Of a DNA stretch of 32,554 bases, positions 911 to 32,554 are shown piece after piece. The notes under the pieces are model-generated. The model was not told the origin of the DNA and ran no database searches. It saw only the letters and a list, made by a program, of their open reading frames with translations. The DNA comes from Acidobacteriota bacterium (lineage in GTDB: Bacteria; Acidobacteriota; UBA6911; RPQK01; JAPXNP01). Location: NCBI GenBank assembly GCA_030597245.1, contig JAUVSF010000005.1:1-32554 (forward strand), read 5' to 3'. The translations under genes were made by a program, and so were the position numbers. Each line of letters begins with the position of its first letter. Position 1 is the stretch's first letter.

Positions 911-1107
911 CGCCTGACCGTTGGAACTGCACGCCTAGACTTTGTCGTAAGCTTAATCGTAAACTTCGTCGGAAACTGGGTGGGATGGACCGACAAGGAT
1001 GACGACAAAGCTCGCGACAAAGGGGAGGCTGTGGTAAGTGATCGGTAATCAGGGTGGAGCCAGGAACCTGAGGGCTGGGTGGGCTGTTGCTCAAACCGCG
1101 CCAGCCC

Positions 1108-1274
1108 AAGCTCGAAATCCGAAGATCGAAACAAGTTCTAAATGAAAAAGTCTAAGGTCTAAACACCTTGAAGTGACTGTTTCTAAATAGCTTATCAGCA
1201 ACAGCCTGTTTCAGTCATTAGATATTTGAGCTTGAGATTTGTTTCGAATTTCGAGCTTCGAACTTCGGATTTGG
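1108..1274. repeat. Dispersed palindromic element, copy A (~170 bp), heptamer-built inverted ends
   Basis: Left end: aagctcg aaatccg aagatcg aaacaag. Right end (reverse complement): aaatccg aagttcg aagctcg aaattcg aaacaaa. Core ...cctgtttcagtc... is shared with copy B at 8808-8978. Confidence 0.8.
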
Positions 1275-1361
1275 CGGGGTAGTCGGTCAAGAAGATATAC
1301 CACCAAGGCACCAAGCACACCAAGAAAAAGTCAGCCGCAGAACGGGAGAATCTCTACAAGC

Positions 1362-8696: not shown

Positions 8697-8736
8697 CGGC
8701 CTGCCGCGCCGTAGCTCGAAGAGCGAAGGGGGGTGC
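8697..8736. repeat. Dispersed hairpin element, copy 1 (CCGTAGCTCGAAGAGC)
   Basis: cggcctgccgcgccgtagctcgaagagcgaaggggggtgc matches 17005-17043 cggcctctcctccgtagctcggagagcaaaggcggatgc. Confidence 0.75.
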
Positions 8737-8807
8737 TCGTAATCGTAATCGTGATCCGCGTGTCCTCCGTAGCTTTAAGGTCTGTTGCCAAAATAGGTAC
8801 ACAGGCG

Positions 8808-8978
8808 AAGCTCGAAGCTCGAAGATCGAAACAAGCTAGAGATTCGAAAGTCGAAGGTCCAAACACGCCGAAGTGTCTGATTTCCAGTCACTTACAGACA
8901 GTATCCTGTTTCAGTCCTCAAATATTCGAGCTTGAGAGTTGTTTCGTGCTTCGGAGTTCGAACTTCGAACTTCCGCTT
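8808..8978. repeat. Dispersed palindromic element, copy B (~170 bp)
   Basis: Left heptamers aagctcg aagctcg aagatcg aaacaag. Right (reverse complement) aagttcg aagttcg aactccg aagcacg aaacaac. Core tcctgtttcagtc...cgagcttgagagttgtttcg aligns with copy A at 1108-1274. Confidence 0.8.
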
Positions 8979-9001
8979 TTTCGATTTGAGCAACACGCCC
9001 T

Positions 9002-9085
9002 GGGAACTGGGAGCTGGGAAATTGGGAGTTGGAAATTGGGAATTGGAAATTGAGAGTTGGGAGTTGGGTATTGGGAGTTGGGTAT
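9002..9085. repeat. Degenerate heptamer array (TGGGAGT-like), 12 consecutive units
   Basis: Splits exactly into gggaact gggagct gggaaat tgggagt tggaaat tgggaat tggaaat tgagagt tgggagt tgggtat tgggagt tgggtat. Confidence 0.97.
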
Positions 9086-9147
9086 TGTCCCCTTTGTCCC
9101 CTTTGCCGTTCGGAACCGAATCATGAAGGTGTTATGGTAAATGGATC

Positions 9148-32506: not shown

Positions 32507-32516
32507 CGGGTAGGGT

Positions 32517-32554
32517 CGGTTATCGGTTATCGGTCATCGGTCATCGGTGAACGG
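32517..32554. repeat. Heptamer array CGGTTAT/CGGTCAT, at least 5 units, runs off window end
   Basis: cggttat cggttat cggtcat cggtcat cggtgaa cgg; same unit family as 8612-8640. Confidence 0.95.

Follow-up and report, generated by a model that had tools for sequence, protein, structure and literature searches.

The palindromic repeat at positions 1108–1274 of the window (the whole 32,554-nucleotide stretch of DNA analyzed here) is very probably the middle of a MITE that occurs in about 200 copies in the genome of this uncultured acidobacterium and is bounded by terminal inverted repeats (TIRs) and target duplications (TSDs). The ends of this MITE carry exchangeable palindromes, and its heptamer core is probably one that was captured and amplified.

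Borders and abundance of the element

The left and right heptamer arrays of this repeat, copy A, were found with the units and at the positions that a sequence-only reading had assigned to them (Table 1), and the core enclosed by these inverted aaNNNcg arrays at 1108–1274 is non-coding, as that reading had held. The second copy to which it had pointed, copy B, is also real; positions 8802–8972 align without gaps to copy A at 74% identity. The borders drawn at 1108 and 1274 were too narrow. Comparison of the genome copies together with their flanks demonstrated that the homology reaches outward to GGGTCTGTTGCCCAAA on one side and to TTTGGGCAACACGCCC on the other. These sequences are 16-bp TIRs, and the heptamer arrays, which had been taken for the ends of the element, sit inside them. 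The full heptamer element, of which 1108–1274 is only the inner part, is mostly 205–240 bp long. It has the consensus GGGTCTGTTGCCCAAACCGCAACAGCCC-(AAGCTCG..AAATCCG..)-AAACAAG-core-TTGTTTC-(GAATTTC GAGCTTC..)-GGATTTGGGCGGGGTGCCCTTTTGGGCAACACGCCC.

Table 1. Positions of the two MITE copies and of their parts in the window
Feature	Positions	Strand	Remarks
MITE copy A, 3'-truncated	1080–1281	+	lacks the TIR and the target duplication of the right end
Copy A left TIR, degenerate (TGGGCTGTTGCTCAAA versus GGGTCTGTTGCYCAAA)	1080–1095	+	
Copy A left subterminal heptamer array (AAGCTCG AAATCCG AAGATCG AAACAAG)	1108–1135	+	
Copy A core, imperfectly palindromic	1136–1237	+	like heptamer-palindrome cores of other phyla beyond shuffled controls
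Copy A right subterminal heptamer array (reverse complement AAATCCG AAGTTCG AAGCTCG AAATTCG AAACAAA)	1238–1274	-	
MITE copy B, complete, both TIRs	8778–9000	+	profile E=2.3e-55
Copy B left TIR (AGGTCTGTTGCCAAAA)	8778–8793	+	
Copy B left heptamer array (AAGCTCG AAGCTCG AAGATCG AAACAAG)	8808–8835	+	
Copy B right heptamer array	8939–8973	-	
Copy B right TIR (TTTGAGCAACACGCCC)	8985–9000	-	

With up to one mismatch, the TIR pattern had 66 + 60 matches (126) in the window's own assembly (G000, a 748-contig draft of 5.33 Mb), versus 0 + 1 for a reversed control. Exact TIRs numbered 58 in G000, 39 in the genus-mate G001, 10 in G005, and 1 in G016, and none was detected in the remaining 34 genomes of the class. 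TIR-bounded elements are mostly 200–300 bp long (full range, 65–387 bp), and full copies, compared in pairs, have a median identity of 83%.

A search of G000 with window positions 1095–1280 gave 40 scored copies with 81–100% identity among 194 first-look candidates. A full-element profile built from 24 copies matched 19 places at E<1e-5, about 8 of which are at least 170 bp long, in a sample of 510,395 bp (contigs C1–C60, arbitrarily chosen), and no match was obtained at the same threshold in the reversed 510-kb sequence. Extrapolated from 19 places per 510 kb, a genome would hold about 200 places (copies or fragments), with near-complete copies numbering about 85. The sequence-only reading had proposed this search of the host genome and had named a total of two copies, with no empty sites, as the outcome that would speak against it; the estimate is about 200 copies instead of two, and empty sites were found as described below. 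Many copies are also present in G001. The copies are mostly intergenic, though crude ORFs span 79% of the 510-kb sample; 6 of the 19 sampled copies lie between convergent genes, some overlap predicted ORFs, and both orientations occur. The element gives a strong fold, a long imperfect hairpin. In both species, one conserved gene takes its last codons and its stop from a MITE half-copy located at its 3' end (L172:441-, L312:444-).

In the window, the profile of 24 full-length genome copies matched copy A at 1081–1285 (model positions 2–213 of 230, E=1.9e-62), and the 3' truncation point lies just past ~1281. An orthologue of copy A was found in G001 (contig C611, locus L094), where the flanks are about 90% identical and the right end is truncated in the same way. 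Based on this shared place and truncation, copy A is old; its insertion and the loss of its right TIR both predate the separation of the two species. When L094 was compared with window positions 1081–1280, the left halves were identical and the right half of copy A had clustered A-to-T changes, possibly an assembly error near the contig end. A ACCACCAAGGCACCAAG-type repeat adjoins copy A (window ~1301–1330) and is also seen at L149, L188, and L201; in G001, the same motif makes up the central part of some elements bounded by the TIRs. Copy B is flanked by TTTA and TGGG, that is, by no target duplication, and a TGGGAAT-type heptamer array starts at 9001, exactly at its right TIR, replacing the expected duplication. 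Because copy A has no right TIR and copy B has no TSD, the mobility of the window copies is deduced from their sister copies.

Target duplications and empty sites

Identical 4-bp flanks were observed in 22 of the 58 TIR-bounded elements of G000 and G001 with both flanks known, against 1.4 expected, and 4-bp flanks with one mismatch in 16 further elements, against 8.2 expected; the expected numbers were derived from mismatched flank pairs. The TSDs have the consensus TNNA, with T in the first position in 35 of 44 cases and A in the last position in 35 of 44, and a few elements have 5-bp duplications. The flanks of the remaining 20 elements differ at two or more bases, and it therefore seems that many copies are old or rearranged.

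For 27 elements, the expected empty site was assembled from the two flanks and a single TSD copy and looked for in G000 and G001. Ten of these joined sites were aligned, two of them exactly to the base and eight approximately. The exact empty sites were those of the C368 element, compared with the same host repeat at C373 with a single TTCA, and of the C281 element, compared with C562 of G001 with a single TCCA; in each case the target is itself a repeat. The approximate sites include that of the C33 element at C570 of G001 and, in the opposite direction, those of the G001 elements at C224 (flanks GTTA/TTCA) and C163, which correspond to unoccupied sites at C606 (TTCA) and C124 of G000, respectively. 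Since the approximate sites have substitutions or small gaps by the junction, they demonstrate the absence of the element but not the exact junction. Taken together, the TSDs and empty sites support transposition.

Three MITE copies, L078, L081, and L042 (C368, C51, and C134 of G000), occupy the same position within a longer repeat of ~190 bp, which is also present without the MITE at C373, C428, C216, and C571. The one internal position shared by the three copies suggests that the MITE-bearing repeat was itself probably duplicated. A preference for insertion into heptamer arrays was too weak to claim (3 of 58 flanks versus 1.6% of random positions).

The sequence-only reading had left the choice between a MITE and a REP-type element. 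TIRs at defined borders, a TSD of constant length, and precise empty sites were all found, and the element is short, non-coding, and present in high copy, in agreement with the former. An autonomous partner is not required of a MITE, and such partners are often lost.

Interiors of the TIR-bounded elements and heptamer palindromes elsewhere

The same TIRs enclose CCAA-type heptamer palindromes (L034, L035, L047, L056, L169, and L195), a CGGAGCC palindrome (L045, L159, L196, and L197), and, in L201, a CACCAAG palindrome between heptamer ends. L175 is a chimera within these TIRs, its left half being CGGAGCC and its right half heptamer. In addition, there are minimal TIR-bounded forms of 65–81 bp (L152 and L168), and the TIRs in G005, a member of the same order, enclose near-perfect 170-bp hairpins (L156 and L160). 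TSDs accompany several of the elements with other interiors. These results show that the palindromic interiors can be exchanged and that the TIRs serve as their carrier; the heptamer-armed core is one such interior. Because the same TIRs and TSDs surround heptamer-less interiors, the heptamers are dispensable for mobility and the arrays are a passenger. The number of heptamers per copy changes in whole units (0–4 on the left and 2–6 on the right), which fits slippage, the likely cause of the variation in arm length.

A period of 7, 14, or 21 was found in 76 of the 121 tandem arrays (63%) in the 510-kb sample, with many unrelated units. The free arrays of the window have three unrelated units (AGTAAGT at 851–910, TGGGAAT at 9001–9087, and TCGGTCA at 32516–32548). 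The link that had been drawn between the element and the heptamer arrays lies more in a common 7-bp period than in common sequence, since most free arrays have unrelated units; the element was rejected as their source for the same reason. The GGATGCC array at one MITE remnant shared by the two species as orthologues comprises 3 units in G000 (L171) versus at least 13 in G001 (L202), a difference consistent with slippage. CGCCGTAGCTCGAAGAGCGAAGG is a further repeated motif near heptamer arrays (window ~8708–8732 and L171).

Named genomes were scanned for the pattern TTCGAAACAAA-N85-115-TTTGTTTCGAATTTCG. The scan gave 18 stretches, which belong to Phycisphaerae/Phycisphaerales, Balneolales, Desulfobacterales, other Deltaproteobacteria, Aminicenantes, another acidobacterium, and Firestonebacteria. 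A sparse palindrome plan, CGAAACAAA-N~100-TTTGTTTCG, thus recurs across phyla that include Planctomycetes. In most of the 18 stretches, the arms consist of CGAANNN heptamers and the apical part varies; the TIRs of the MITE were not seen at them. A profile of 15 cores from other phyla (the acidobacterial one excluded) scored 18 of the 19 window-genome cores above 8 bits, versus 4.1 bits for the best of 380 dinucleotide shuffles with the ends kept; as the 19 cores are mutually related, this is one family-level result. Two of the cross-phylum palindromes, L134 and L141, have an extra GC-rich CCCCGCGGACC inside the left heptamer arm, and in L134 a near-complement of it lies on the far side of the right arm, as would be expected if palindromes grew by insertions made in pairs.

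Among 396 genomes of the phylum, the exact pattern occurred 40 times in G000, 17 times in G001, 3 times in G210, and at most once in each of the others, where many single matches look like chance. Based on these counts, the core is rare except where the TIRs carry it. Outside the genus, the palindrome has 1–3 exact pattern matches per genome, and its copies differ greatly from one another and give no indication of a recent spread. The palindrome matched no Rfam family, a literature search for two sequence strings gave no occurrence, and the cross-phylum heptamer palindrome is apparently undescribed. The core likeness supports the assignment of the heptamer core to a palindrome that other phyla carry in low copy number, as resemblance rather than as proven descent, and convergence towards an A/T-rich palindrome of 7-bp periodicity is a possible source of it. 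At somewhat less than an even chance, we consider that an undescribed cross-phylum family of intergenic palindromes, with an origin or function of its own, has met here with a TIR/TSD 'palindrome carrier' that spreads diverse local palindromes.

Transposition, alternative explanations, and related systems

No TIR-flanked gene was found among the 6 PF01609 genes of G000 and the 4 of G001, G005, and G016, and no PF05598 or PF13586 gene was present in the genomes tested. These searches, which covered three DDE families and in which G000 is a 748-contig draft, gave no autonomous partner with the same TIRs. Viral contigs had 43 solitary TIR matches, no TIR pairs, and no heptamer palindromes. At C87 of G001, a DDE gene lies about 1 kb from a half MITE; it stands past a truncated copy and has no TIR, and therefore looks like a separate insertion. 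IVP/four-helix-bundle (PF05635) genes were rejected as autonomous partners, as none of the 30 loci had a paired element; one single TTTGTTTCG-type match and one single CGAAACAAA-type match were present at the 23S rRNA IVP loci (n=30). Derivation from the IS5/IS1182 superfamily was likewise not supported, as these searches gave no transposase of that family bounded by these TIRs.

TIRs, constant short TSDs, and empty sites are typical of DDE-type cut-and-paste transposition acting in trans. Assigned from the form of the TIRs and TSDs only, a DDE-type transposase, now lost or unrecognized, would bind in trans to the TIRs, make cuts staggered by 4 bp in the target, and paste the element there. 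An ancestor of the genus is probably where the heptamer core was captured by the TIRs, and amplification followed. Candidate routes for the exchange of interiors are the capture of a palindrome between two TIR copies and recombination between hairpins.

The element could instead be derived from REP/BIME or IS200/IS605 sequences and be moved as single-stranded hairpins by a Y1 transposase (RAYT) that recognizes the heptamer arms. Its many palindromic, intergenic copies and long imperfect hairpin would agree with this, and G000 contains two Y1_Tnp genes. However, the element and its motifs are absent from the surroundings of both Y1 loci, so that RAYT was rejected as a partner and the IS200/IS605-like or RAYT gene with shared ends, which the sequence-only reading had suggested looking for, was not found in the genome. 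Y1 (IS200/IS605) chemistry makes no target duplication, and the 4-bp TSDs, TIRs, and single-TSD empty sites are at odds with the single-strand chemistry of HUH enzymes; we regard this origin as very unlikely. It is also improbable, though a little less remote, that the unit which moves or is selected is the heptamer-armed palindrome itself, the GGGTCTGTTGCCC repeats being either incidental or the outermost part of that palindrome. Other phyla do have palindromes built on this plan without these TIRs, and a core-only profile scores above shuffles, but the insertion borders in the genus are set by the TIRs and TSDs, other interiors are moved by the same TIRs, and outside the genus the palindrome is too rare and too dissimilar among its copies to indicate recent spread.

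The mostly intergenic location, the copies between convergent genes, and the strong fold would suit a structured RNA or cis-regulatory element, e.g. a terminator or attenuator, which is conserved for its function and repeated because it is useful. In contrast, Rfam gave 0 matches at the gathering score in 16 loci and chance-level matches only at E<=5 in the window, and copies are present or absent between species with TSDs, occur in both orientations, and in part overlap predicted ORFs. A primary function of this kind is thus highly improbable, whereas the secondary co-option of copies for an RNA or regulatory role is possible. Simple heptamer slippage, by which a tandem array happened to become inverted with no transposition, is scarcely credible, because it cannot yield ~200 dispersed copies with a common core, TIRs, TSDs, and empty sites. 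It would agree with the predominance of period 7, 14, or 21 in the sampled arrays and with the whole-unit changes in the arms, and heptameric SSRs are known to be over-represented in bacteria, for which a polymerase-slippage hypothesis has been reported (PMC4692102).

The element, read as a MITE bounded by TIRs and TSDs, has counterparts among described mobile sequences. Correia/NEMIS-type MITEs are similarly 100–250 bp long, intergenic, hairpin-forming, and bounded by TIRs, with copies in the order of hundreds, but have different TIRs, a TA duplication instead of the 4-bp TNNA, and no heptamer arms; we know of no interior exchange in them. IS5-like and IS1182-like DDE insertion sequences also have short TIRs starting with GG or GA and TSDs of about 4 bp, and no member with the TIRs described here was found in the genomes tested. 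The nearest described case is that of the BrickBuilt and 464/PgRS MITEs of Porphyromonas gingivalis, which are likewise short, non-autonomous, and TIR-bounded with an internal tandem-repeat block, and in which the TIRs of two families are similar but the remaining sequence of the elements is not related (PMC4596501). Their repeats are 23 and 41 nt long, whereas the heptamers here form the inverted arms of a palindrome; their TIRs resemble those of resident IS5-family elements (GAGACCTTTGCA), whereas no partner was found in our searches; and their copies are far fewer, whereas here there are more interiors, one of them related to the cross-phylum palindrome. Heptamer arrays have been described for GGGAATC in Xanthomonas and Nostoc (PMC4692102) and for TAACTGA in Beggiatoaceae (as cited in PMC4853749). 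Like the arrays here, these heptameric SSRs are intergenic tandem 7-bp units, variable in number and sometimes inverted, and they are described simply as arrays rather than as the subterminal arms of a mobile element with TIRs and TSDs (PMC4692102, PMC4853749).

One TIR pair with the same TSD signature accompanies at least four unrelated palindromes as well as the two-kind chimeras L175 and L201. MITEs are usually regarded as internal-deletion derivatives of one insertion sequence. With one TIR pair around diverse palindromes and chimeras, the origin of new MITEs becomes testable within one genus. About 200 hairpin-forming copies would be expected to hamper assembly (748 contigs here). Through its heptamer interior, the MITE is connected with a palindrome that recurs in several phyla, and also with the excess of 7-bp tandem repeats in bacteria, which is unexplained.
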